Made by a program: the position numbers and the translations under genes. 51,693 nucleotides of DNA from Desulfatiglans anilini DSM 4660. Lineage in GTDB: Bacteria; Desulfobacterota; DSM-4660; Desulfatiglandales; Desulfatiglandaceae. Below the pieces are notes generated by a model. It was not told where the DNA came from. It saw nothing but the letters and a program-made list of their open reading frames with translations, and did no database searches. Shown piece after piece: positions 7,304-30,232 of the stretch; the first letter of the stretch is position 1, and each line of letters begins with the position of its first letter. The DNA is taken from positions 1-51,693 of the forward strand of contig NZ_AULM01000028.1 of assembly GCF_000422285.1 (NCBI RefSeq), given 5' to 3'.

Positions 7304-7843
7304 CCAGAAAACCTCCGATCCGTTGCCTTTTGCACCTTCTTGCTCGACAGAAAACGTGCCTGTCCTCTCCTACCTTCACCGGGGTGCGCCAGCTTGTGCC
7401 ATGCACTCCACCTCAACCATCGAATAACTCTTCCTCAAGAGCTTGAATTCTCTGCCCTTCGGCGCTGCACTCCGACAAGTGCCAAGGAGGCGATCTTGGA
7501 GTTCATCTCCTCATTTCCCTTCGACTTCATGGCCCTCTTTAAAACATCAGCGCATCCTGGAAGTTCGGATCGCGCAAGCATCGAAACAAAAACATCTCTT
7601 TTCATAACGAAAAGTGCAGAAACCAAGCAATCGAACAATAATTATTTACCATGAATTGAAATTACACAGCATTTTTACACACTAAAGAGAAACTTCACAT
7701 GCAAAAAAACAATGCAATCAAAAGACTGCATTTGCCATCCACGGATGTCAGTCAGCCTGAAATCATTACCTGCCATAGGCAAAAGGTACAACGGAAAAAA
7801 TCAAATCTTCAACAGAAGGAGACAATCATTTTAATTATACAAA
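7304..7843. other. Gene-free, increasingly AT-rich upstream region of the BKACE operon
   Basis: No convincing gene was seen on either strand; a 67-codon minus-strand frame at 7435-7638 has no recognisable features. The stretch should hold the promoter of the BKACE-LIV operon, but no clear -35/-10 or -24/-12 pair was found. From about 7600 the base composition drops sharply in GC towards the ferredoxin gene. Confidence 0.4.
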
Positions 7844-8200
7844 TCATTGAACAAACAATCTTTCAATTTCTTCCATGGTTTTTTCGGCTACTTTCCTATT
7901 TTTAAGAAAATATCGCTGCAAACGATCGATAAGCTGTCTTTGCTTGTCTCTATCATCAAAATAATATTCATGTGATAAAAGTGTTTTTACCCAATTTAAA
8001 TTTTCTGCAACTTCATCCGGAATACGCTCACCATCATGGCGCACAGCATCATTTGGACATACATTGTGGCAAACACCACATCGGATGCACTTATCATCAT
8101 CTATAAAGGCTACATCCTCTATTATTGAAATGGCTCCAGCAACACATGAATCCACGCAAATCCGACAACCATCACAAAATTCTTTATTTATCCATGGCAT
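7844..8200 (-). CDS. Small ferredoxin-like protein with two 4Fe-4S motifs and a helical tail
   Basis: This 118-aa protein has two cysteine sets: Cys9-12-15-19 (CDGCRICVDSC) and Cys38-41-44-48 (CIRCGVCHNVCP), the pattern of a bacterial 2x[4Fe-4S] ferredoxin. The first set is followed by Val instead of the usual Pro. Residues ~60-118 are charged and helical (DEVAENLNWVKTLLSHEYYF and KNRKVAEKTMEEIERLF), an extension absent from plain ferredoxins that may bind a partner. The gene is strikingly AT-rich compared with its neighbours and stands alone between two transporter operons, next to repeat copy B, which suggests acquisition by transfer. The role in electron transfer is inferred from the cysteine pattern; the partner is unknown. 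Confidence 0.82.
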   Translation of the reverse strand: MPWINKEFCDGCRICVDSCVAGAISIIEDVAFIDDDKCIRCGVCHNVCPNDAVRHDGERIPDEVAENLNWVKTLLSHEYYFDDRDKQRQLIDRLQRYFLKNRKVAEKTMEEIERLFVQ

Positions 8201-8622
8201 TTGATCCTCTCTCCGCTCCTGCCATCTTTCAGCCCCAGCCGGGGTCGAGAAACCAACCTGCCAGACCCCTCGCTACGGCATATCTTATGGAATGATTTTA
8301 ATCATTTATACATGCACTGGCACGACAACCCCTGCGAGAGAAAACCGCAGACCAGCCGCTCCCACATCGATCGGGTCGATTCACTCGGCAGCACTCCTGA
8401 GTGAACACCTGAAATCGGTTTTCACACAGCGGAACTTCATTGATATCAGATAGAAAACGCACCACAATAAACAAAGGCAGAGCGCTCAAATCACTCAGCA
8501 GCACTTTGCTTAGAAGAGTCTTTCAGGAACCCAAATGGCGACTCTAAGGCTGAAAAACAGCGCCATTTAGAATGATAACTATTTATTTCCGAGCAGTTAG
8601 CTTGGTCCGACCCGAACTATAA
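8201..8622. other. Intergenic region between ferredoxin and dctP, with repeat copy B
   Basis: No gene is supported. The right part is repeat copy B. The rest should contain the ferredoxin promoter, which I could not define, and the terminator region of the TRAP operon. Confidence 0.4.
8533..8613 (+). repeat. REP-like element, copy B
   Basis: A stem formed by AAATGGCG (8533-8540) and CGCCATTT (8561-8568) encloses CTCTAAGGCTGAAAAA, a string shared with other copies. After about 32 bases comes the core CTTGGTCCGACCCG (8601-8614). The core ends 9 bp from the dctP stop codon, so here the element abuts but does not enter the gene. Confidence 0.72.
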
Positions 8623-9654
8623 CTACTTGCTGAATTCCTCCACCATTTCCTGGACGGCCTTGAAGACGGCTTCCCCGTCGACGCCTTTTGCGTTGGCGTT
8701 TTTGATGTAGGTATCGAAAACCGGTTTTACGGCCTCCTTGAACTTCGCCGATTCCTCGTCGGACAGTTCGATAAACTCATGACCGAGTTTCTCCACAAAT
8801 TCACGCCCTGATTCGTCGCTGTCTTCCCAGGCCTTGGCCGTTATGTTAGCGTATTTTTTGCTCACATCCGTAATGATCTGCTGCAGGTCGGGCGGGAGGC
8901 TGTTCCATTTCTTGAGATTCATAGCCACGAAGAAGCCCTGGGTGTATGCGCTGCTGTAGGTGAGCGTCGTATACTTGAGAACCTCTCCCTGTTTGAAGCC
9001 CTCGAGAGCCTCCATGGGCACCAGGGTCCCATCCACGATGTTTTTCCTGAGGGCGTCATAAGTCTCGCCTTGAGACATAGCCACAGGAGCGGCCCCATAG
9101 GCCCGCACGATCAACTGACTCGTGCCGGTCGAGCGGATCTTCAAACCCTGTATATCCTCGAGCTTACGGACGGGTTTGTTCACGGTGTGAAGCAGCCCGG
9201 GCCCATGCGCGAACAGGTAGCAGATGTGGACATCGCTCATCTCCTGCGGCTGGAACTTGTTGTACAATTCGTTGATCACCTTCGTAGCGATGTAGGCGTT
9301 GCGGTAGCCAAGCGGGTTGTCCACCGCCTCCATAATAGGGAAGCGCCCCGGGGAGTAGGCCAGGACGGAGGATCCGAAATCCGAAATGCCCTTCACCACC
9401 CCGTCATAGATCTGCGGGGCAGGCGTGAGAGACCCCCCGGTAAAGATTTTTATTTTTATCCTGCCGCTGGAAAGCTCTTCAATCTCTTTTGCCCAGGCTT
9501 GGGGCACCTTGGTCTGAATGTGGGTTGGAGGGAAAAACGTGCTGTAGGTGAAGTTGTAGGTTTCCGCCTGTGCCTGCGGAACGACCATCCCCATCGACGC
9601 AAGCAATGCACCGCATACCAGACACGCCACTGTGAACCAGAAATTTTTCCTCAT
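8623..9654 (-). CDS. dctP: TRAP transporter solute-binding protein, DctP family
   Basis: This is the periplasmic receptor of a tripartite ATP-independent transporter, which captures an organic anion for sodium- or proton-driven uptake. The protein is 343 aa with a signal peptide ending near VPQAQA, then YNFTYSTFFPPTHIQ. The conserved DctP stretch GLKIRSTGTSQLIVRAYGAAPVAM contains the Arg that usually binds the ligand carboxylate. The frame is open further upstream, but MRKNFW at 9652-9654 has GGAG about 7 nt ahead and starts the signal peptide. It is last in a dctQ-dctM-dctP operon, 112 bp after dctM. The ligand cannot be deduced. Confidence 0.92.
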   Translation of the reverse strand: MRKNFWFTVACLVCGALLASMGMVVPQAQAETYNFTYSTFFPPTHIQTKVPQAWAKEIEELSSGRIKIKIFTGGSLTPAPQIYDGVVKGISDFGSSVLAYSPGRFPIMEAVDNPLGYRNAYIATKVINELYNKFQPQEMSDVHICYLFAHGPGLLHTVNKPVRKLEDIQGLKIRSTGTSQLIVRAYGAAPVAMSQGETYDALRKNIVDGTLVPMEALEGFKQGEVLKYTTLTYSSAYTQGFFVAMNLKKWNSLPPDLQQIITDVSKKYANITAKAWEDSDESGREFVEKLGHEFIELSDEESAKFKEAVKPVFDTYIKNANAKGVDGEAVFKAVQEMVEEFSK

Positions 9655-9766
9655 ACCGACTCTCCTTTCGATCTTGAAGTTCACCGCCTCTGAAATCCCT
9701 CTCGCACTCCAAAAAAATTCATCGAAAAGCCGCTTGAAGCACAACCTCCGTTTCCAATTGAAGAGA

Positions 9767-11071
9767 TCAATACGCCAGAAAACTTGGCAAGAACAGAGCG
9801 ATCTGCGGAAAGAAAATCATAATGACGATGTAGGTGATCAGCGTCAAAACAAACGGGAAAGTCCCTTTGAAAATGACCTCCAATGGCACCCCCTTTGCGA
9901 TTCCGCTCACGACATACACATTGATGCCTACAGGCGGCGTAATGACGCCAAGCTCCGTCACGAGCACGATCACCACCCCAAACCAGATCGGATCGTAGCC
10001 AAGGGCGACCGCAACCGGGAAGAATATGGGGATTGTCAGGAGGATCATTCCGAGGGCGTCCATGAAACATCCCCCTATGAGGAAAAAAAACATGACGACG
10101 ATCATGATGGCCCAGTGAGGCAGGGGAAGCTCCACGACCCACCCCGACAAGGTGCTCGGGATGGTGGTCACCGCCAGAAAGTGGCCGAATACCGTCGCCC
10201 CTGCGACAATCATGAAGATCATGCAGGTCGTGCGCGTCGAGGAGTAGAGTGCATCCCGAAACCCCTCCCAGCTGAGCTGATTCCTCACGAGAGGAATGAC
10301 CAGGCCTCCGAAGGCGCCTACCGCGCCCGCCTCCGTCGGGGTGAATATGCCCAGGAAGAGCCCGCTCATGACCAGCAAAAACAGGATGATGACCTCGACC
10401 AAGCCCGTCAGGGACTTGATTCTGGTTCTCAACCCTTGCTTTTCGACCAGTGGGGCGATCTCCGGCCTCAACGAGACCCAGATGTAGATGGTCAGGATGA
10501 AGAGGATGGAAAGCAGGATCCCGGGAAGAATCCCAGCCATGAAAAGTTTTCCGATGGATTGTTCGGTCTGGATCCCGTAGACGATGAAGATTACGCTGGG
10601 CGGGATCAGAATTCCGAGGCTCCCCCCGGAGGCCACGACACCCGTAGCCAATTCATCACGGTATTTCAGCCGTTTCATCTCGGGAAGCGCGACGGAGGCC
10701 ATGGTCGCCGCCGTCGCGTTCGTGGATCCGCAGATGGCGGAAAACCCCGCACAGGCTCCGATCGTCGCCATCGCGAGGCCGCCCTTGTAATGACCGACCC
10801 ACTTGAAAGCGGCATCGTAGAGTTTGCGGCTGATGCCCGAGTAGAAGAGAATTTGTCCCATAAAAACGAACAGCGGGACGACCGTCAAGTCATATGAGCT
10901 GTAAACCGTATAAAAATCTTTCACGGTGATGTTCAGCGCCGCAGCAGGGCTCACCAGGTACCCGAAACCGAGCAGCCCCACAAGGGCCATGCAGAAGGCA
11001 ACCGGAAAACGTGAAAATAAAAGAATGACGAGAAATAGAACGCCAAGGAGGCCGACATGGACTGGATTCAT
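9767..11071 (-). CDS. dctM: TRAP transporter large permease, DctM family
   Basis: This is the 12-segment membrane subunit that carries out ion-coupled transport (434 aa). Family blocks are AGFSAICGSTNATAATMASV, GILIPPSVIFIVYGIQTEQS, and ELGVITPPVGINVYVVSGIA near the C-terminus. Its ATG overlaps the dctQ stop by four bases (ATGA), so the two subunits are translated together, as their one-to-one complex requires. The protein appears intact at both ends. Confidence 0.94.
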   Translation of the reverse strand: MNPVHVGLLGVLFLVILLFSRFPVAFCMALVGLLGFGYLVSPAAALNITVKDFYTVYSSYDLTVVPLFVFMGQILFYSGISRKLYDAAFKWVGHYKGGLAMATIGACAGFSAICGSTNATAATMASVALPEMKRLKYRDELATGVVASGGSLGILIPPSVIFIVYGIQTEQSIGKLFMAGILPGILLSILFILTIYIWVSLRPEIAPLVEKQGLRTRIKSLTGLVEVIILFLLVMSGLFLGIFTPTEAGAVGAFGGLVIPLVRNQLSWEGFRDALYSSTRTTCMIFMIVAGATVFGHFLAVTTIPSTLSGWVVELPLPHWAIMIVVMFFFLIGGCFMDALGMILLTIPIFFPVAVALGYDPIWFGVVIVLVTELGVITPPVGINVYVVSGIAKGVPLEVIFKGTFPFVLTLITYIVIMIFFPQIALFLPSFLAY

Positions 11072-11565
11072 CTTTTCGCCTTCTTCCAGAAGTCTATGAG
11101 GTTATGCAGAATGGCGAGGCATAGGCCGAAAAAACAAAGTCCAATCAAATAAATAAGTGGATAAAACGGAATATGCAGGATCGGTGTGATCTCCCCCGCC
11201 GCCTTCATATCGAGGCCCAACTCGACGGACTGCCATACCAGCACAAGAAAAAAGAGGATGCCGAGAATGTGTGTCACGGTTTCGATGACGAGCTGTTTGC
11301 CCCGCGAGAGGCTCTTGACCAGGATGTCCACCGCGACATGCCCCTTCTGCAGCATCGTATAAGGCATCGCAAAGGCAGCCACGACAGCGCCCAAAATGCT
11401 CACGATTTCATAAGTCCCGGGGATTGGACGACTGAAGAGATACCTCATGGAGATATCGAAACAGGTAAGCAGCATGATCACCAGAAGCGCCAGAGAGGCG
11501 ATCAAATTGAACAGGCTGCTAAGCCCTGCAGTCTTTCTGACGACCTTGAAGCTCTCTTTTTCCAT
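11068..11565 (-). CDS. dctQ: TRAP transporter small permease, DctQ family
   Basis: This small membrane subunit (165 aa, four hydrophobic segments) forms a complex with DctM. It shows the typical FDISMRYLFSRPIPGTYEI stretch and the VAAFAMPYTMLQKGHVAVDI block seen in DctQ proteins. It opens the TRAP operon and overlaps dctM by 4 bp. Upstream is the long AT-rich gene-free region; no promoter could be fixed with confidence. Confidence 0.9.
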   Translation of the reverse strand: MEKESFKVVRKTAGLSSLFNLIASLALLVIMLLTCFDISMRYLFSRPIPGTYEIVSILGAVVAAFAMPYTMLQKGHVAVDILVKSLSRGKQLVIETVTHILGILFFLVLVWQSVELGLDMKAAGEITPILHIPFYPLIYLIGLCFFGLCLAILHNLIDFWKKAKR

Positions 11566-12646
11566 AAGACCCGCTCATCAACACTAACCATGAACGAAAA
11601 GATCTTTTCAAACCAAGACGCGGCGGTTGAACTCGATGGAACTTCCAATCGGGATACACGATTTCAAGCTGCAAAAGCCCTGCTCGGCTGTTTTCGATAT
11701 TCCCTCAAGTAGGACAACCACCTCACCTACCCCATGCAAACGCCACCATACCGGATTGCAGCTGAAAACTGCATATATGCCCGGAATATATGGATTAAAT
11801 GTTAAAGCTTTACGATAGACACCGAGCAGCGCTCAGCGGAGCACTTCTCATCCGGAAACCCCTGGATAACGGCAACAGTCAACGAGGTTTTCCCGGCAAC
11901 TCGATTTGAAAAAAATTTTGATACGCTTTATTGGGACAACGGACACCCTTGAAGATGCCCTGTACTTTTACAGATTGAAATGAGAAGAACATGAAGGTTA
12001 GAAAACAATAGAGACTTAACGAATATAGCTCGTCTAATGTATTAGGAAGGCGTACCTAGACGCGAACTTCACCATTTGTTCGCATATCGCAAACCGAAAG
12101 GATCATCAGCCGCAAGCCGTAACGCCTTCCCTCCTTTTTGAAAAAAATAGAAGACCTGTTTGAAACCAATGACTCTTTCTTGAAAGAAGATGCTCGAAAA
12201 GCAGCCAAGATTAAACTTCCCGTTAGACTTCTAGAATACGCATCCTTCTTTTGTCAAGCCCTATTTGGGGTCGGACCAAGATAGGTACCTGGATAGACTC
12301 GAAAAAAAATCGAACACGGGCCAGTTTTACCCCTTAAAACCGCCTTTTGAACCTGAAAAAACCTGTTTTAAGCCATTGAACGATCCTTCTGAAAACCTGA
12401 ACAAAAACGATCCTCAACCCGAGATCCTCAACATCTGCAAATGATTCGAGGCAATAAACCTCAGCCCAGCCCAACAGGGATACAAGGAGCCTGGACGCGA
12501 ATCCGAGCAACGCTTAAAGCTTTCAGCAGGTGTCCATCATATCCCCCTGCCTTGCATCTACATCTGCTTAAAACCGTCATTTGGGCCTTGAAAAGGCCAT
12601 TCTAAGGCAGCAAAACACCATGTTTTCCGGCAATAACAATGTGATT
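11566..12646. other. Long AT-rich gene-free region with two opposed REP-like copies
   Basis: About 1.08 kb without a supportable gene on either strand. The part nearest dctQ should hold the TRAP operon promoter. Repeat copies C (minus) and D (plus) occupy the far end, with their cores facing outward. The stretch is much more AT-rich than the coding flanks and may be decayed or transferred DNA. Confidence 0.45.
12267..12375 (-). repeat. REP-like element, copy C (inverted)
   Basis: The core is present in reverse as GGGGTCGGACCAAG at 12267-12280. Reading on the minus strand, the preceding ~90 bases include CTTAAAACAGG and GGCGGTTTTAAGG strings similar to the body of the other copies. The far boundary is approximate. 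It forms a divergent pair with copy D. Confidence 0.6.
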
Positions 12647-12672
12647 TCAATTGGATAACCTGGTCCGACCCC
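12576..12672 (+). repeat. REP-like element, copy D (enters AI-2E-type permease 3' end)
   Basis: The body has GGCCTTGAAAAGGCC, a perfect short inverted repeat, then TTCTAAGGCAGC and TGTTTTCCGGCAATAA, the latter shared with copy E. The core is CCTGGTCCGACCCC (12659-12672) with one change from the consensus. On the minus strand it encodes the last residues GRTRLSN and the TGA stop of the permease gene. Confidence 0.75.
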
Positions 12673-13702
12673 ATTGGTTGATGATGGCTTGGACGAGGGT
12701 GGCGAGGGGGATGGCGAAGAAGATTCCCCAGAAACCGAGGACACCGCCGAAAAAGAGGACTGCGACGATGATGGCGATGGGGTGCAGGTTGACGGCCTCC
12801 GAGAAAAGGAGGGCGACCAGCACGTTCCCGTCAAGTATCTGGATGAGAAGATACGCGCCGACGGTATAGAAAAAAGGCGCGGTCGGCCCCCATTGGAAAT
12901 AGGCGATGAAGGCCACGGGAAACGTCATCACGGTGGCACCGATATAGGGGATCAGAACGGAAAGCCCGACGAAAAGACTCAGCAGCATTGCAAACTCGAG
13001 ACCCAGGAGTGAAAAGGTGATGAAACTGACCACCCAGACGATGAGGATCTCCCAGGCCTTCCCGCGTACATAGTTCCCTATCTGGCGGTCGACCTCTTGC
13101 CAGACCTCGCTGGCCAGCCGCCTTTCCGCCGGAAGAAATCGTCGCACCCATTCGAGCAGGCGATTCTTGTCTTTCAGGAAGAAAAACACAAGCATAGGTA
13201 CAAGGAACATATAGACCACGATCCATACGATCAAGCGGGCCGAAGCGATCGACAAGGAAACGAGCCGCTGCCCGGCATGGGCAAGCTCGGAGCGCAGCAT
13301 GGCCATGAAATCCCGGATCTGCTGCTCACTGAAAAACTCGGGGTACCGCTCCGGCAATTGCATCAAGGCATCCTGTGTCCAGGATATCTTGGAGGGCAGC
13401 CCCTGGATGAGCTGTACCAACTGCTGCCAGAGAAGCGGGATGAGCGCCAGGAAGAGAAAAAGCAGGCCGGCCATGAAAAGCACGAAGATGATCACTACGC
13501 TCAAGATGCGGGGAATTTTCAAACGCTCGAAGAATTTCACCAGCCCTTCGAGCAGATAGGCAACGACAAGGCTGACCAAGACGGGGGCGAGGATCTCGCC
13601 CAGTGCCAGGACGAGGACCCCGCCGATTACGAGAAGCACCCCGAGGATTACGATCTGGGGATCGGAAAGATGTCTGCGGAACCAAGCTATAACGGGATTC
13701 AT
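12647..13702 (-). CDS. AI-2E / PerM family membrane transporter
   Basis: This polytopic inner-membrane protein (351 aa) belongs to the AI-2E transporter family (PF01594). Members export autoinducer-2 or act as Na+/H+ or metabolite exporters, so the name does not prove the substrate. Features are paired N-terminal helices, a long soluble segment around residues 100-150, GNYVRGKAWEILIV, and the conserved C-terminal LIPYIGATV and GGVLGFWGIFFAIPLATL. The start ATG 13700-13702 has GGAG 7 nt ahead, so 13 codons of the longer frame are rejected. The C-terminus IINQW-GRTRLSN and the stop come from repeat copy D, implying loss of the original tail. It is probably last in the GAF-kinase-UspA operon. 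Confidence 0.9.
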   Translation of the reverse strand: MNPVIAWFRRHLSDPQIVILGVLLVIGGVLVLALGEILAPVLVSLVVAYLLEGLVKFFERLKIPRILSVVIIFVLFMAGLLFLFLALIPLLWQQLVQLIQGLPSKISWTQDALMQLPERYPEFFSEQQIRDFMAMLRSELAHAGQRLVSLSIASARLIVWIVVYMFLVPMLVFFFLKDKNRLLEWVRRFLPAERRLASEVWQEVDRQIGNYVRGKAWEILIVWVVSFITFSLLGLEFAMLLSLFVGLSVLIPYIGATVMTFPVAFIAYFQWGPTAPFFYTVGAYLLIQILDGNVLVALLFSEAVNLHPIAIIVAVLFFGGVLGFWGIFFAIPLATLVQAIINQWGRTRLSN

Positions 13703-22845: not shown

Positions 22846-23844
22846 CTACCAGCCGATGGCGAGGCTGCGCCGCTGATTGTCTTCAATGACCCTTTGGAGG
22901 CGGCCGGCTATCCGGAGCGCCTCATCCAGCGCATCCTGCTGCGGCCCCGGCACGGACGGAGACCAGCAGCCTTCCACCCATTCCATAAAGACGATCGCGG
23001 CATCGAGGACCTTCTCCATCGCGTCCTTCCGATCGATTAGGTCATCGCCGTTGAAATCCCCTTTGTCCGAACGCTGCTGCCACTCGCGGGTGTACCAATC
23101 GGCGAACAGCTGCACATCCCGATCCGCACGCTCCTGAAGATCCAGCATGTCGACGATGCCGTCCTCGTTGAAATCGGCCCCGCATGCAGCGCTGTAGGTC
23201 CACACCGTCAGGTCATCCAACCAGAATAGCGGCCGGTCTTCCCCAGGGCCCTTGCCGCAGATCTGAAACCGTGTCGATGGATATGCCGCTGAATCGACCT
23301 CGGAGAACGTCGCGAACTTCAAGACGCCGTCCCGGTAAAAACGGACATCGCCCTCCGGCGTCACGGTGATCTGGAAGAGATGCCACGCGTCGTCGGGGCA
23401 GGCCTCCCAAAACACCGCATGCTCGGTGGCATAAAGGATCCCCTGGGACGGCGGCGAGGTCAGCGTCACCGAGGCCAGAAAGGATGGAAGAGACTCGTTT
23501 TCGTCGGCCCCGGTAAACCCCGCCGCCAGCTGCGCCCCGTCCGGCAGATCCGGCGAGGCCTTGAGTTGGAAGGCCGCAGAAAGGCCGCCCTCCGTCTCGA
23601 AGGTCTCCGTTGTCAGAATTCCTTCGAGACGCTCTGCGCCCACGCCTGCCGTCAAAGCGCCGCTGCTCTCGTAACCCGGAAGACAGACCTCGGCCCCTTC
23701 CATGCTCGTTCGGAACCATTTTTCCGCATCGATGCCCGCCTCCCAGCCCTCCGAAAAGAGCGCTTCGGCCGCCGCGGCACCATGCAAGGACACTGCCAGA
23801 AATATGGCAATGATTAGGCTGATCCATCTTTTCATCGTTTTCAC
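22846..23844 (-). CDS. Secreted protein with lectin-like domain and two calcium-loop-like repeats
   Basis: This exported protein (332 aa) has a signal peptide ending near HGAAAA. Residues ~30-210 look like a concanavalin/LamG-type beta-sandwich (SEGWEAGIDAEKWF, then ILYATEHAVFWEACPDDAWHLF and VRFYRDGVLKFATF). Two EF-hand or dockerin-like loops follow: DFNEDGIVDMLDLQ and DFNGDDLIDRKDAM. Dockerin loops normally dock onto cohesins, but no cohesin or cellulosomal gene is in the window, so calcium-stabilised structure is an equal possibility. The C-terminal ~60 residues are helical. Function unknown. Confidence 0.75.
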   Translation of the reverse strand: MKTMKRWISLIIAIFLAVSLHGAAAAEALFSEGWEAGIDAEKWFRTSMEGAEVCLPGYESSGALTAGVGAERLEGILTTETFETEGGLSAAFQLKASPDLPDGAQLAAGFTGADENESLPSFLASVTLTSPPSQGILYATEHAVFWEACPDDAWHLFQITVTPEGDVRFYRDGVLKFATFSEVDSAAYPSTRFQICGKGPGEDRPLFWLDDLTVWTYSAACGADFNEDGIVDMLDLQERADRDVQLFADWYTREWQQRSDKGDFNGDDLIDRKDAMEKVLDAAIVFMEWVEGCWSPSVPGPQQDALDEALRIAGRLQRVIEDNQRRSLAIGW

Positions 23845-23981: not shown

Positions 23982-25334
23982 ATGCACGAAAAAACGCTTG
24001 ACGCTATGCGAATCGACGCCCGCCGCATTTTCGAGGCCGCCGTCGAGGCCGTCGATCCCTACGCCGCCGTGCGAGGCCATTGCACCCTCGACCAGGCACA
24101 GCTCACCGTGCGGTCCGGCGAGGAGGCCTTCTTCACTCTCGACCTCGAACGCTTCCGGCGGATATGGCTCGTCGGAGGAGGCAAGGCGACCGCGCCAATG
24201 GCCAAGGCGGTGGAGGATCTTCTCGGCGACCGCATCACCCGCGGCGTCATCGTGGTCAAATACGGCTTCGGGGAGGCCCTGCGGGCCACCCGCATCATCG
24301 AGGCGGATCACCCCGTACCCGATCGGAACGGCGTGGCGGGGGCAAAGGCGATCCTCGATCTGCTAGGGGAGGCCGGCGAAGACGATCTGGTCTTTTCGCT
24401 GATTTCCGGGGGAGGTTCGGCGCTGCTCCCGCAGCCGGCCGAAGGGATCCGGCTCGAAGAAAAGCAGGCATTGACACGCAGCCTGCTCGCCTGCGGCGCG
24501 AGCATCGACGAAATCAACGCCGTCAGGAAGCACATATCGGCCCTGAAGGGCGGGCAGATGGCCCGCGCCGCCTACCCGGCCGCCACCTTGAACCTGATGC
24601 TCTCGGACGTCGTCGGCGACCGGATCGACGTCATCGCGTCCGGCCCCTTCACGCCCGATCCGTCAACCTTCGGCGAGGTGGCTGCGATCCTCGAGAAATA
24701 TGAACTGGACGACATCCCGAATTCCATCCGCCGGCACATCCGGGCCGGTGAGGAAGGGCGGCTCCCCGAAACCCCCAAGCCGGGCGACCCGATCTTCGAG
24801 AAGGTCCATCACACCGTTGTGGGAAGCAATATCCTGGCTCTCGAGGCGGCCGAGCGGCGGGCGAAGGCGCTCGGATACGGCGCCCTGATCCTTTCGTCCA
24901 TGGTGGAGGGGGAAACGCGCGACATCGCAAGGATGCACGCGGCCATCGCCAAGGAGTGCCTCAAATCGGGGTATCCGGCCCGTCCGCCGCTCTGCGTCAT
25001 CTCCGGCGGGGAGACCACCGTCACGATCCGGGGCGAAGGCCTCGGGGGCAGGAACCAGGAGTTCAGCCTGGCGGCTGCGCTCGACCTCGAAGGCGAGCCG
25101 CCGCGCGTGGTCGTCCTGAGCGGCGGGACGGACGGCAACGACGGCCCGACGGATGCCGCAGGGGCCGTCGTCGACCCCCTGACCGTTTCGCGGGGCCGCG
25201 CCGCCGGCGTCGAAGCCGTGCAGGCGCTGAGGGAAAACGACGCCTACCCCTTCCTTCAAAAAACGGGGGATCTCCTGGTGACAGGTCCGACGCGGACCAA
25301 CGTCATGGACGTGCGCCTCGTCCTCGTCCGGTGA
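23982..25334 (+). CDS. Glycerate 2-kinase, type 2 (GckA/TtuD, DUF4147-MOFRL)
   Basis: This cytoplasmic kinase phosphorylates D-glycerate to 2-phosphoglycerate with ATP. The protein is 450 aa. The N-terminal DUF4147 part has RIWLVGGGKATAPMAKAVEDLLG, then LVFSLISGGGSALLPQPAEG and MLSDVVGDRIDVIASGPF. The C-terminal MOFRL part has GGRNQEFSLAAALDLEG and LSGGTDGNDGPTDAAGA. GGAG precedes the ATG by 8 nt and a good promoter lies just upstream. The gene converges on the glycosylglycerate operon; glycerate released when that solute is broken down would be this enzyme's substrate, so a functional link is plausible. The usual role in glycerate or serine-cycle metabolism is equally possible. Confidence 0.92.
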   Translation: MHEKTLDAMRIDARRIFEAAVEAVDPYAAVRGHCTLDQAQLTVRSGEEAFFTLDLERFRRIWLVGGGKATAPMAKAVEDLLGDRITRGVIVVKYGFGEALRATRIIEADHPVPDRNGVAGAKAILDLLGEAGEDDLVFSLISGGGSALLPQPAEGIRLEEKQALTRSLLACGASIDEINAVRKHISALKGGQMARAAYPAATLNLMLSDVVGDRIDVIASGPFTPDPSTFGEVAAILEKYELDDIPNSIRRHIRAGEEGRLPETPKPGDPIFEKVHHTVVGSNILALEAAERRAKALGYGALILSSMVEGETRDIARMHAAIAKECLKSGYPARPPLCVISGGETTVTIRGEGLGGRNQEFSLAAALDLEGEPPRVVVLSGGTDGNDGPTDAAGAVVDPLTVSRGRAAGVEAVQALRENDAYPFLQKTGDLLVTGPTRTNVMDVRLVLVR

Positions 25335-25359
25335 GGACCGCCAAGGCGGCCGGGCGGCA

Positions 25360-26592
25360 TCAGCCGCGCTTCTGCTGCCAACGCTTCACGAGATAGGGCT
25401 TGGTCATCTCGAAGGTCATGCAGTCTTCTTCGATGGCCTCTTCGGCCTGCTTGATGTTCATGCTCCGGGTCTTTTTGACGAAGGACAGCGTTCGGCCGAA
25501 GTAGAGCGGGATCAGCGATTCCATCATCTCATCGCAATCGTGGACCGCATCCCTGTAGGCGACGGCCGTATCGAAGAGGATGCGCGCCCACAGGTCCGTC
25601 GGCACATCGAAGACGTTTTCCTTCATATCCTTGATCTCCAGAAGCTTCTTGTAGACATCCGGGGTCAGGACCGTCTTCCAGAGGCCGTCGAAGTCATCGA
25701 AGCCCTTCCGGAACTGGCGCAAGAGGTTCGCGGTGTCGACCGACACCTTGGGAGGCATCTCCGTCTCGCCGAGGCCGAAGCCGTAGATGGCGGTCGGCCG
25801 GCTGTATTTCACCTTGAGCCACAGGTCCTCGAGGCGCCCCATCAACGAAAAGATGGTGCCCACCACCTGACGGAACATGGGGCCGAGGTGGGCCCCCGGG
25901 TCTTTGGTGCGGTGGATCTTGGGCCGCCCCATGAAGGATTGACAGATCTGGACCTTCTGCCGGATGGCCACCGTGGTCATCCAGATATCGATCCCGAAAT
26001 GCGCTACGGCCTCGTCCCAGATCTCGCACTCCGCATAGGCCCTGGCCATTTCGCCGCTGAAGCCGAAATCGCCCCCGATCGGCTGGCGCACCCGCCGTCC
26101 ATAGAGCGACCGGGTCAGCGGATAGGCGATGCCGTTCGTGATGGTCCCATCGTACTTGTGACGGATATAGAGCGGCGCCACGTAGGAAAATCCGTTGTAG
26201 AGCGGCTCGCCGAGGTGCCTGATCCACTCCGGGGTGATGCTTTTCAGATCGGCATCGACGACCACCACGGCCTTCGCACCCAGTGCGACCACCTTTTCGA
26301 ACAGATTCTTGAAGTTGTTGCCCTTGCCCTTGACGCCCGGAGGCGTCGAGAGGTAGATCTTGGGCGTTACGGTCTCCGTACCCAGGAAGACGGCCTTCGT
26401 CTCGTCGGGCGAATCATTGTCGCAATTGATGATGACCGCACGCTTGTCGCCGAAATATTTCTTGAGGCCCTCGTCCGCCTGCTTGATCGGATACGCTATG
26501 GAGTCGGCCTCCTTGTAGGACGGGATGCAAACCACCATCTCGGCCTTCTCGATATTCTGCGGGTTGACCTCTCTTTCAAAGCCTTCCGTCAT
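25360..26592 (-). CDS. Mannosylglycerate-synthase-like glycosyltransferase
   Basis: This GT-A fold glycosyltransferase of 410 aa opens MVVCIPSYKEADSIAYPI. The metal motif is VVVDADLKS (DAD), followed by EWIRHLGEPLYNGFSYVAPLYIRHKY and QPIGGDFGFSGEMA. This arrangement resembles the mannosylglycerate synthase (GT78) type and the sugar transferases that add mannose to glucosylglycerate. It overlaps the upstream phosphatase gene by 17 bp, so it is translated with it. The likely step is transfer of mannose or glucose from a GDP- or NDP-sugar to (glucosyl)glycerate; the donor and acceptor cannot be fixed by eye. No membrane segment was seen. Confidence 0.75.
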   Translation of the reverse strand: MTEGFEREVNPQNIEKAEMVVCIPSYKEADSIAYPIKQADEGLKKYFGDKRAVIINCDNDSPDETKAVFLGTETVTPKIYLSTPPGVKGKGNNFKNLFEKVVALGAKAVVVVDADLKSITPEWIRHLGEPLYNGFSYVAPLYIRHKYDGTITNGIAYPLTRSLYGRRVRQPIGGDFGFSGEMARAYAECEIWDEAVAHFGIDIWMTTVAIRQKVQICQSFMGRPKIHRTKDPGAHLGPMFRQVVGTIFSLMGRLEDLWLKVKYSRPTAIYGFGLGETEMPPKVSVDTANLLRQFRKGFDDFDGLWKTVLTPDVYKKLLEIKDMKENVFDVPTDLWARILFDTAVAYRDAVHDCDEMMESLIPLYFGRTLSFVKKTRSMNIKQAEEAIEEDCMTFEMTKPYLVKRWQQKRG

Positions 26593-27436
26593 CTATTTCT
26601 CCCTCCTTCATCTCTCCCAAAATCGCCGAGACCGTCTCGTTCCAGCCCTCAGGGCCCATCCGGCTGCTGATCATCAGATTGGGAATATGTTTCTTCAAGT
26701 AACTGTAATCCCGCGCCGATCGGATCAGTACGGGGAATTCGACCTGTTCGAGCATGGAAAAATCATTCGGACTGTCTCCCAATGCGATCGACCAGACGGG
26801 GGTGCGAAGCCGGCGGTAGTGCGCCATCAGCATCCTCACCGCTCTCCCCTTGTCGTTCGAGCCTTGGAGATGAAAAAACCGCCCGCCAGCCAGGATCTGC
26901 AGCCCGCGGGCGCGGGCGGCTTCTTCGAGCGCCCGGCTGCCCCCGCCGGAGGCCGTTTGAACAATGAACGGTTCGTCGTACTCCCGCCGGGCGGCAAGGC
27001 GCGCATCCTCGAGGCCCAGGCCCGTCAGTTCCGCGATCTCCTCCGCGCGCATATCGGAGAAGCCTCTGACAGGCAGCCCGGTCTGATTGCGGATCTCGGC
27101 GAGCGCCTGCACCAGGCGCGGATAAGGCTCGCCGAAACGCCAGACCCAGAAGCCGTCCTCCGGCGAGGCGCCTTCGGGCCGGGGATTCCCGCCGTCGAAA
27201 AAGACCGCACCGCCGTTCTCCACGACGAACGGGTCCGAGAGGCCCAGCGCCTGGCGCAGCGGCTGCATCTCGGCCCGGGTCTTGCTCGAGACGAGGACGA
27301 CCGGCACCCCTAGGCGCCGGCAAAGGCGAAGGGCGGGCGCGGCCGCTTCCCACGCGTAGGTGTCGTGATCCAGCAGGGTCCCGTCCAGATCAGTGAAAAC
27401 GATATAGGAATCTGTCAGCCCACCCGAATGTTTCAT
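26576..27436 (-). CDS. Mannosyl/glucosyl-3-phosphoglycerate phosphatase-like HAD protein
   Basis: This HAD-superfamily (Cof/MPGP type) phosphatase has 286 aa. Motif I is FTDLDGTLLDH, the Ser of motif II is in VVLVSSKTRAEM, the motif III Lys is in GSNDKGRAV, and motif IV is ALGDSPNDFSML. FVVENGGAVFF is typical of mannosyl-3-phosphoglycerate phosphatases. It removes phosphate from the sugar-3-phosphoglycerate made by the next gene upstream. It lies 20 bp after the synthase stop and overlaps the glycosyltransferase start by 17 bp. Whether glucosyl- or mannosyl- is preferred is unknown. Confidence 0.85.
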   Translation of the reverse strand: MKHSGGLTDSYIVFTDLDGTLLDHDTYAWEAAAPALRLCRRLGVPVVLVSSKTRAEMQPLRQALGLSDPFVVENGGAVFFDGGNPRPEGASPEDGFWVWRFGEPYPRLVQALAEIRNQTGLPVRGFSDMRAEEIAELTGLGLEDARLAARREYDEPFIVQTASGGGSRALEEAARARGLQILAGGRFFHLQGSNDKGRAVRMLMAHYRRLRTPVWSIALGDSPNDFSMLEQVEFPVLIRSARDYSYLKKHIPNLMISSRMGPEGWNETVSAILGEMKEGEIDDGRL

Positions 27437-27456
27437 CGCTGATCCGCCGCGGGGTC

Positions 27457-28824
27457 TCAGTGCGCAAACCGCTGTTTTTCCCGTTCCACAACCTCGATGA
27501 TCTGAAAAAAGATGTCGGGCAGTTTGTTGTGGACCCGTTCCCAGGAGACTGTCTGCGGCATGTCGAAGCCGCCTTTTTCCGTCCGCCGCTCAACGGCCAG
27601 GACGGCATCCGCCAGACCCTGCTCCAGGAATGGGGCGAACTCCTCGTGCGTGTGCAGGAAACGCAGGAAACGCTCGGTCATCCGGTAGGGCGCCGTCAGC
27701 ATCTCGCCGGCGTGGATGATGCTGTGCCGGAAGACATCCTTGATGAGCGACTCTTCCGCATCGCGGTCGTACTTCAGATTGCTGAACCCGGCATCGTCCG
27801 AATACTTCTTCACGTGCTCTTCGGCCACGGCCTGGTAAGTCACGGCAAGGTCCCGGAAGAAGGTATCCGAGATTTCGAGACCCTCTTCGATGACCAGCGC
27901 GTTCATGAGGGTCGCGACGATGTCGATGGCCATCCGGTTCAGGCCCCTGGCAGGGTCGCCGGACGAACTCACCTGGTGCTTGTGGTCGAAAGGCCGATCG
28001 CTGAACATGACCTGGGCGGCCGAAGAAGCCTTGCGATACACCTCGATCAGCGTGAAAATCTCGACCCCCCAGTTGGTGGCGAAGCGCATCCGCTTGAGCA
28101 GATCGGAGTGAAAGGCCACCTCGCCCGAAAGCTGGTACTTGAAGGCCAGGAGGAAATCGATCAGCCGGAGCATTTTCTCTTCCCGGCTTTCCGTGAATTT
28201 CCGTTTCAGCGCCAGGAGCAGCGGGTCGAGCAGCAGCCGCTTGACCCGTCCGTAGATCTGCTTGTTCATCAACCTGGCGTAGTAGGCCTTCGAGAAATCG
28301 TAGTTGAGGGCGACCACCGGATAGAACAGGCGGTCGAGCTGAATCCGCTTGAAGGTGCGGATGTCGGCATCGATCAACCCGATGGAGTGCGCACCCAGTG
28401 CCAGCGCTATCCCGAAGCTCAGGAACATGTTTTTGCCCTTCCCGGGCTCGCTGATATCGAATCCGGCCTCGTTCAGCCGGGCATAGATCCCGCTGAAACC
28501 CGGACCGTCGTTCCACTGGATCAAGGCGTTGCGGATCCCCGCCTCGTCGATGAGCCGCCTGAGGTGAAAGGCGTCCTCTTCGCCCGCGCGGTCGAGTCCG
28601 AAAATGATGGTCGAAAGATAGACGATACTGCGAAGCTGGTTCAGGATGTTCCTGAACACCGGCAGGTTGTCGGGGTCCGTGAATTCAGAGGCGAGGCACG
28701 GGATGATGAGGACGGTCTTCTTCCATCGCGAATGAAGGCGCAGTTGGGTCTTCAGGTGGTTCCGGTCCGTCTGCAGGATGTGAAAGGTCGTGATCTGCCC
28801 GCTGTGCTGGGAGAAATCGCTCAT
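27457..28824 (-). CDS. gpgS: Glucosyl-3-phosphoglycerate synthase-like glycosyltransferase
   Basis: This first gene of the operon encodes a 455-aa GT-A glycosyltransferase. TVLIIPCLASEFTD leads to GKGKNMFLSFGIALALGAHSIGLIDADIRTF, with the DAD metal motif, and later to the FATNWGVEIFTLIEVYRK block of glucosyl/mannosyl-3-phosphoglycerate synthases. It would transfer a sugar from an NDP-sugar to 3-phosphoglycerate. With the phosphatase and second transferase downstream, the pathway product should be glucosylglycerate or a mannosyl derivative, a compatible solute. The start ATG lies 20-30 bp after GGGG, a weak ribosome site. Assignment to GpgS is by motif recall. Confidence 0.78.
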   Translation of the reverse strand: MSDFSQHSGQITTFHILQTDRNHLKTQLRLHSRWKKTVLIIPCLASEFTDPDNLPVFRNILNQLRSIVYLSTIIFGLDRAGEEDAFHLRRLIDEAGIRNALIQWNDGPGFSGIYARLNEAGFDISEPGKGKNMFLSFGIALALGAHSIGLIDADIRTFKRIQLDRLFYPVVALNYDFSKAYYARLMNKQIYGRVKRLLLDPLLLALKRKFTESREEKMLRLIDFLLAFKYQLSGEVAFHSDLLKRMRFATNWGVEIFTLIEVYRKASSAAQVMFSDRPFDHKHQVSSSGDPARGLNRMAIDIVATLMNALVIEEGLEISDTFFRDLAVTYQAVAEEHVKKYSDDAGFSNLKYDRDAEESLIKDVFRHSIIHAGEMLTAPYRMTERFLRFLHTHEEFAPFLEQGLADAVLAVERRTEKGGFDMPQTVSWERVHNKLPDIFFQIIEVVEREKQRFAH

Positions 28825-29656
28825 CGCTACCCCCTGGCGCCCCCGATCCCGCCCCCCAGGACGTGACGAGGACGAAAACGGGCCCTTGGGCGATGCGCCG
28901 CTCCGCCGGGGCGCGGCCTCATGGCAAAATACGCCGTCCGCGCGGCGGCCCCAAGGGTCGCATGTAAAAATGGCTCGATCCTATCCGGTTTCTTGATGGA
29001 ACCTAGCGAATTTACCCCCCGATGTCAATGCCGTTCGGGGCGACGCCCTCCCCGGGCTGCAAGCGCCTGACCGTTTTTCAAGCCCTGAGCCGGTCAGGGG
29101 CCTTGCTGCCCTCTTCGGCCGCAAAGGGGTTGGTGCGGCCCCGATTGTCGACAACCGGGAGCGGATGAGGGAGGAAGGGATCCCGTCCTTCAAGGAGCAC
29201 CCGGCCGCCGCAACCGGATGTCCGCCGGTGCGCACCGGCTTGCATGACATCCCGAAAAGCTGTAGGCTCATCAGGACCTGCAGGCACCGATCCCGAGCGC
29301 CTTTCCTTGCACGGGTGGCGTTGCCCATCAAGGCGCTGACTGGAATGGAAGGTGCCTTTTGAGCCGTGACCGTCCGCGGTCAGCGGGCTTCTAGCCGAAA
29401 ACACCCGTTTGAGGGTTGAAAACAGGACGGAAAAAGATCATTTTATGGCTATAGGTGCATGCGTCCCGCCTGTGGTGAAACATCCCCGTCGGCAAACACG
29501 AAACCCTGCCGCCCCGGGGCGTCCTTTCTGGAGAGGCTGGAGTTTGCAGAATGCCGTGAAAGGACGCATGCCATCATCATTACCCACTCGGAGCGGACGC
29601 CGGCGGGCCCCTTTCGGCGTTCCTTTTGCGAGGGAGAGAGCCGGAAAGAGAGCACT
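28825..29656. other. GC-rich gene-free region between two divergent operons
   Basis: About 830 bp without a supportable gene; the open frames here lack family motifs and ribosome sites. It should hold the promoter of the gpgS operon and that of the HD-domain operon. Two small hairpins are present: CCTGACCG/CGGTCAGG at 29066-29098, and TGACCG/CGGTCA at 29367-29382. No riboswitch fold was recognised. Confidence 0.4.
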
Positions 29657-30232
29657 ATGATTCCAAGCTATGAAACATGTCTGGAGGCCTGGGACCAGCA
29701 CAGAATGCTGGACAACATCCGGGCCCACAGCCTGATCGTCGCGCGCGTGGCTCATTTTCTAGCGGAGACTCTGCTGGCCCAGGGGATCCCGGTGTCGGTC
29801 GCCAAGACCACAGCGGGGGCCCTCATGCACGACATCGCCAAGACTCCGTCGCTCCAGTCGGGCGAAGACCACTCCGAACTGGGGCGCCGGATCTGCCTTC
29901 AACACCACTTCGACGAGATCGCGGACATCGTCGCCGAACACGTGAGGCTGCGGAGCTTCGATCTGAACGGCGTATACTCCGAAAAGGAACTCGTATACTA
30001 TGCCGACAAACGGGTGAACCACGACCGGATCGTCAGCCTCGATCGAAGGCTGGACTATATCATCGAACGCTACGGCGCCGGCGACCCGGACAGATGCTCC
30101 GCCATCCGCCTGAACTTCGGCCGTTGCCGATTGATCGAAGGGAAGATATTCAGTAAACTCGCTTTCGGACCGGAGGCCCTGAAACACCATGTCTTGAAGG
30201 GACCTGAAGAACCGGTCTTCACCACGTCCTAG
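29657..30232 (+). CDS. HD-domain phosphohydrolase
   Basis: This cytoplasmic metal-dependent phosphohydrolase has 191 aa. The HD motif residues are His24 (RAHSLIVARVA), His58-Asp59 (GALMHDIAK) and Asp117 (YYADKRV). The short length, about one HD domain, fits the family that acts on small phosphorylated molecules. The substrate is unknown. AAAGAGAG lies a few bases before ATG 29657. It is followed by a 66-aa protein 10 bp later and then dsbD, so a co-transcribed unit is likely. Confidence 0.88.
   Translation: MIPSYETCLEAWDQHRMLDNIRAHSLIVARVAHFLAETLLAQGIPVSVAKTTAGALMHDIAKTPSLQSGEDHSELGRRICLQHHFDEIADIVAEHVRLRSFDLNGVYSEKELVYYADKRVNHDRIVSLDRRLDYIIERYGAGDPDRCSAIRLNFGRCRLIEGKIFSKLAFGPEALKHHVLKGPEEPVFTTS

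Follow-up and report, generated by a model that had tools for sequence, protein, structure and literature searches.

A conserved three-gene operon of Desulfatiglans anilini, probably for the glycosylglycerate mannosylglucosylglycerate

What does an operon that joins two glycosyltransferases and one phosphatase, and that faces a glycerate kinase, produce? The question is raised by a window of 51,693 nucleotides (nt) from Desulfatiglans anilini DSM 4660 (the whole stretch analyzed, contig NZ_AULM01000028.1), taken from a genome of 4.67 Mb in 107 contigs. The operon lies on the minus strand and begins with gene C (27457-28824; 455 amino acids [aa]), a GpgS-like (GT81-like) glycosyltransferase, followed by gene B (26576-27436; 286 aa), a HAD-IIB phosphatase of the mannosyl-3-phosphoglycerate phosphatase (MPGP) family, and by gene A (25360-26592; 410 aa), a second glycosyltransferase with the predicted fold of GT78, that of mannosylglycerate synthase. 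Judging from the sequences and a predicted structure, we favor, at barely better than even chances, a two-sugar glycerate solute as the product, most likely mannosylglucosylglycerate (MGG). The operon itself is real and conserved, and its product is probably a glycosylglycerate, MGG. A handful of bacteria are known to have a pathway of this type, and the module proves to be common in the phylum, Desulfobacterota.

In the proposed pathway, C would transfer glucose from a nucleotide-glucose to 3-phosphoglycerate, giving glucosyl-3-phosphoglycerate, and B would remove the phosphate, giving glucosylglycerate. A would then add mannose from GDP-mannose to the glucose of the glycerate compound, giving MGG. 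A may act either before B, in the manner of MggA, or after B, in the manner of MggS; for MGG, mannosylation is known to occur in both orders, before dephosphorylation with MggA and after it with MggS. MGG would act as an anionic compatible solute when the cells are salt-stressed or short of nitrogen, and on its breakdown the glycerate kinase (gene D) might return glycerate to central metabolism.

Anatomy and conservation of the operon

As seen in the window, the stop codon of C (27457-27459) is spaced 20 nt from the start of B (27436), and the start of A (26592) contains the stop codon of B (26576-26578), an overlap of 17 nt. Because of this close spacing followed by an overlap, C, B, and A very likely form one transcript. 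A scan of promoters and terminators returned one promoter-like site (1.1 in shuffles) and eight terminator-like sites (4.6 in shuffles), none of them usable. The original prediction had described a coupled operon of a GpgS-like synthase, an MPGP-type phosphatase, and a second, GT78-like transferase, with a convergent glycerate 2-kinase. This description held throughout: all four frames were found where it had placed them, and the gene order, the profile matches, and the fold of A reported below agree with it.

Next, the conservation of the gene order was evaluated in a neighborhood count that admits only loci with A beside C. Twenty-six distinct A genes have C within two upstream genes; three of them, at L087 and L088, belong to another group of relatives (the a-type group, see below) and were set aside. 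The 23 counted loci form one clade (27 rows with duplicates; Shimodaira-Hasegawa-like approximate likelihood ratio test [SH-aLRT], 99) in a quick tree of A, of which 32 of 99 inner branches are open. In 21 of these loci, B separates the two transferase genes (19 called and 2 detected by tblastn, L044 and L108), the loci lacking it there being L047/L113 and L109. Starting from C, 14 sampled genomes carry a copy that is at least 70% identical; A adjoins it in 12, and the full C-B-A order is present in 11. Among the matches listed, the nearest relatives of A (67 to 77% identity) come from genomes named Desulfobacteraceae, Deltaproteobacteria, Thermodesulfobacteriota, or Desulfobacterium, and the best 80 of the 579 relatives, each with an identity of 50% or more, include none titled Thermotogota or Planctomycetota. 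The A relatives of L058 and L061, on a very long branch, are probably other transferases.

Families and predicted sugar pockets of the two transferases

Gene C matches the GpgS_Meth profile NF040724 over most of its length (model positions 2 to 364 of 402; 221.8 bits, E value 1.4e-65). Since this score is under the curated cut-off of 700 bits, C is filed as GpgS-like. The GKG lysine, the DxD motif, QLSGE (S233), and WGVE (E255) are present, and GRVK (G192-K195) replaces the acceptor motif GRVT. A predicted structure of C, made from 11 close sequences, was poor (predicted local distance difference test [pLDDT], 48.7) and was set aside.

Against sequence profiles, A scored 49 bits with GpgS (NF010496), 22.3 with Glycos_transf_2, and 18.6 with MGS_GT (PF21969), all under the cut-offs. 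A is called GT78-like and is not filed as a mannosylglycerate synthase because it misses the gathering score of PF21969 (27 bits); 40 of 50 members of the A family match this profile at an E value of 0.01 or less, the best at 1.7e-8. The AlphaFold model of A, built from 50 sequences, reached a mean pLDDT of 92.7. When it was searched with Foldseek, the top eight matches were mannosylglycerate synthase chains, followed by GpgS. Alignment with VIA-align 2 gave Z scores of 34.7 to 36.1 against mannosylglycerate synthase, over 354 to 359 residues (model residues 19 to 403, including the C-terminal helical part), whereas the highest score against GpgS was 20.9, over some 225 residues, and the score was 20.0 over 239 residues against the mannosyl-3-phosphoglycerate synthase of R. 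xylanophilus. The model suggests that A has the whole GT78 architecture. Compared with the mannosylglycerate synthase of Rhodothermus marinus (GT78; PDB 2bo4 and 2y4m), A shares the full-length fold (Z, 36) and has equivalents of the DxD motif, Lys76, Asp192, His217, and Thr139; however, the identity is only 18 to 19%, PF21969 is below cut-off, and A stands in an operon with a GpgS-like gene and a phosphatase. By alignment, the corresponding residues of A include DAD (D113-D115), QPIGGD (G173), FGID (D202), and H227. A and C are themselves related by profile comparison (probability, 88%; E value, 2.8e-6; 161 columns).

The choice of sugar was read from the residues of the pocket. According to Pereira et al. 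(PMC2581804), glucose use goes with PLSGE (Ser210) and Glu232 in GpgS, and mannose use with PLGGE (Gly) and Asp192 in mannosylglycerate synthase. Under the rule as stated there, the aligned pocket of C (Q-L-S233-G-E and W-G-V-E255) is of the glucose type and that of A (Q-P-I-G173-G-D and F-G-I-D202) of the mannose type. These residues are largely kept in both families: among 106 A-family frames, 97 carry QPIGG[DE]F, 3 QPIAGDF, 2 EPIFGDY, and 1 EPLMGDF, with 3 unmatched, and GID or GVD is found in 103. Glu occupies position 255 in all 74 aligned C-family frames, and Ser occupies position 233 in 54. A pair formed by a glucose-type C and a mannose-type A would be a good test of sugar choice in related glycosyltransferases.

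With respect to the mannose donor, GMP_PMI was matched at an E value of 1e-30 in 13 of the 14 genomes with a close C, the model's own cut-off being passed in none. Its guanylyltransferase part is covered in 12 of the 14, this genome included, which allows a supply of GDP-mannose here that A may use.

Co-occurrence and weighing of the product

The distribution of the three genes was examined in 395 genomes of the phylum, with thresholds that differ by gene (E value of 1e-20 for C, 1e-40 for A, and 1e-20 for TIGR01486, which represents B). C-like genes were present in 134 genomes, A-like genes in 163, and TIGR01486 matches in 121. All three occurred together in 112 genomes, A and C in 12, B and C in 4, A and B in 3, C alone in 6, B alone in 2, A alone in 36, and none in 220. 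Like the recurrent C-B-A order, this distribution goes beyond chance. Fisher tests ignore descent, and the family-level count is safer: A is present in 45 of the 46 taxonomic families with C, and 8 families have A only (the total of 107 families being the highest family number seen). If the operon makes MGG, this tight co-occurrence of A, B, and C would offer a direct genomic marker for the solute.

Gene B scored 250.3 bits against TIGR01486, the MPGP family, above the cut-off of 164.75. Against the equivalog TIGR02461, mannosyl-3-phosphoglycerate phosphatase, it reached 208.4 bits, below the cut-off of 244.35; therefore, B is filed as a member of the MPGP family and not as MPGP itself. Of the 121 genomes with TIGR01486, 116 hold C, and B occurs in only 3 of the 39 A genomes that lack C. 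Since B accompanies C and seldom occurs with A when C is missing, we regard B as the partner of C. Together with the gene order C-B-A, this partnership fits dephosphorylation before the action of A. Twelve genomes have A and C and no MPGP-type B. In seven of the eight whose C neighborhood was examined (G037, G135, G162, G211, G233, G316, and G334), C is preceded by a HAD-IA gene, directly except in G135, where one gene intervenes; this is likely a replaced phosphatase. The HAD-IA gene is absent from G020, where C is of a short type. Genomes of this kind carry it beside C at loci L054, L055, L057, L058, L061, L030, and L033, the first five of which also have a gene of about 530 aa.

From the two transferases, the original prediction had derived a disaccharide product such as MGG. 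A two-sugar product stands as the best reading and MGG is favored by the pocket residues, with the donor and acceptor predicted from sequence. Several findings weigh against it. Where GpgS binds the acceptor through Thr187, C has a Lys (K195), and among the 74 aligned C-family frames this position is Lys in 45 and Thr in 27. The GpgS of M. hassiacum, a glucose enzyme, carries PLGGE, and 20 of the 74 C-family frames have Ala for Ser at position 233; for these two reasons the Ser/Gly half of the pocket rule is not absolute, and the Glu/Asp half is based on few solved enzymes. Moreover, three genomes have a C at 74 to 77% identity without A beside it. In G397 (77%), C and the A relative are far apart; for G159 and G293, the contigs with C, which extend 1.4 and 3.4 kb downstream, gave neither A nor B by tblastn. 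In addition, orthology of A to the characterized MggA or MggS is putative.

The supply of the donor counts on the same side: of the 12 genomes in which A adjoins C, 10 matched the guanylyltransferase part of GMP_PMI at threshold, G252 having the C-terminal part only and G349 nothing. This fits a different outcome of the same pathway, in which glucose is the second sugar and the product is diglucosylglycerate, as does the resemblance of A to GpgS (NF010496). We consider this outcome improbable, since the pocket of A is of the mannose type (G173 and D202) and its closest fold is that of a GDP-mannose enzyme.

The remaining findings against MGG concern the acceptor and the independence of A. A retains the Ile and Thr (I151-T152) with which mannosylglycerate synthase holds the carboxylate of glycerate, and this fits direct mannosylation of glycerate as well. 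Furthermore, C is missing from 39 of the 163 A genomes, and B is missing too from 36 of these; A can therefore function in their absence. A looser GpgS search of these 39 genomes returned weak matches only (25.0 to 28.6 bits), in 5 of them. The retained Ile-Thr pair, the A genomes without B and C, and the mannosylglycerate synthase fold of A fit a reading with two separate solutes, with C and B making glucosylglycerate and A being a mannosylglycerate synthase that acts on D-glycerate and needs no phosphatase. In that case, gene D (23982-25334, plus strand; 450 aa) would compete for glycerate. D is a class II glycerate 2-kinase, with DUF4147 (PF13660; 288.6 bits) and MOFRL (PF05161; 133.6 bits) both above cut-off, and converges on A tail to tail with 25 nt between the ends; it does so in 14 of the 23 loci, making it a frequent but not a fixed neighbor, and this adjacency also suits the two-solute reading. 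Nevertheless, we regard two separate solutes as unlikely, although somewhat less so than diglucosylglycerate, because C and B alone suffice for glucosylglycerate and yet only 10 of the 134 C genomes lack A, and because A shares its operon with C and B. Two loci stood apart among the A genomes without a C match: in G285, A adjoins B, and in G393, A, a weakly GpgS-like frame of 474 aa, and B lie within 4 kb.

In addition, 28 genomes were chosen from those behind the A loci L114 to L179. A C-like gene was present in 25, including 5 of 5 Acidobacteriota, 1 of 1 Calditrichaceae, and 2 of 2 Aminicenantes; it was missed in a KSB1 genome, one Desulfobacterales genome (L129), and Desulforhabdus sp. TSK. 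A receiver-domain protein (PF00072, a small response regulator) directly follows A in 36 of 108 A genes, many of these A proteins being about 60% identical to A (for example, L115:6769-7146), and some of the relatives at about 60% identity with a receiver gene (L114 to L179) carry a divergent B. We suggest tentatively, and with more doubt than belief, that A, B, and C are a widespread, unnoticed module in Desulfobacterota and beyond (A with a C-like gene in Acidobacteriota, Calditrichota, and Aminicenantes), which would supply anaerobic bacteria of sediments with two-sugar glycerates as major anionic solutes. The lineages of A might then differ in the second sugar or acceptor, perhaps including a diglucosylglycerate synthase.

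A second gene pair and related systems

The genome holds a second pair of transferases (L005, G000:C7:6000-25000, positions 7733-13442), consisting of a (419 aa, 41% identical to A) and c (420 aa, 35% identical to C). The c protein is closer to GpgS than C is (300 bits). The two pairs have one TIGR01486 phosphatase between them, B being the sole match in this genome at an E value of 1e-20. After the a-c pair come the glycogen synthase gene glgA and a CdaA-type cyclic di-AMP (c-di-AMP) cyclase; c-di-AMP is tied to osmotic balance in other bacteria. In other genomes, a-type relatives adjoin a C-like gene and B, and the gene order varies.

The neighboring glycogen synthase also bears on whether the glycosylglycerate is a free solute at all. 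Glucosylglycerate primes the methylglucose lipopolysaccharide of mycobacteria, and the product of the operon could likewise prime a larger glycan or form its terminal group. Some A relatives in other genomes adjoin UppP/BacA and PgmG-like mutase genes, which agrees with such a role. The operon in the window, in contrast, is flanked by the glycerate kinase, a protein without a Pfam match, and an HD-domain protein, none of which is a polymerase, transporter, or acyltransferase, and we give this explanation the smallest chance of those considered. We also weighed the PgmG-like mutase as an indicator of mannose supply but discarded it, since its name does not distinguish glucose from mannose.

For the preferred product, MGG, the closest known systems are the pathways of Rhodopirellula baltica and Petrotoga mobilis. 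Their enzymes are reportedly GpgS, MggA, and MggB in R. baltica (Cunha and colleagues, 2013) and GpgS, MggA, and MggS in P. mobilis (Fernandes and colleagues, 2010), and Lamosa and colleagues are said to have found diglucosylglycerate in Persephonella marina in 2013. The MGG pathways likewise combine a GpgS-like first transferase, a second transferase, and a phosphatase; they differ from the operon in that they occur in another phylum. The phosphatase of the operon is of the MPGP family, to which R. baltica MggB may or may not belong, and the likeness drawn here is one of enzyme types. PMC3694870 describes MGG in R. baltica, where it rose 25-fold under nitrogen limitation, and states that it was earlier known from two Petrotoga species only. 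On this evidence the attribution of MGG to Persephonella in the original prediction looks wrong. If our reading is true, a compound so far known, according to PMC3694870, from few bacteria (Petrotoga and Rhodopirellula) would be a solute of a large, mostly uncultivated group of anaerobes. Among the titles and abstract openings covered by our literature search, outside which most subscription journals lie, the operon is undescribed in Desulfobacterota.

Searches of plasmids returned an A relative in 1 record and a C relative in 11. On Pseudoalteromonas and Leisingera plasmids, the C relative (33 to 37% identity) adjoins a HAD-IIB hydrolase, a pair that would correspond by name to GpgS and its phosphatase, for the synthesis of glucosylglycerate; a sugar phosphorylase lies alongside, with no match to A in the plasmid search, whereas the operon in the window has a second transferase instead. 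On a Halorussus plasmid (L099:4346-6131), the A relative (35% identity over 57%) overlaps a methyltransferase gene, perhaps for a methylated glycoside.

Within the window, an HD-domain gene (29459-30232) is divergent from C. Its gene cluster spans 18 loci, mostly upstream of C in the same clade, and this probably reflects synteny only. On the other side of the locus, positions 22846-23844 encode the protein without a Pfam match, which has a signal-peptide-like N-terminus and, as judged by eye, stretches resembling dockerin-type calcium-binding sequences.

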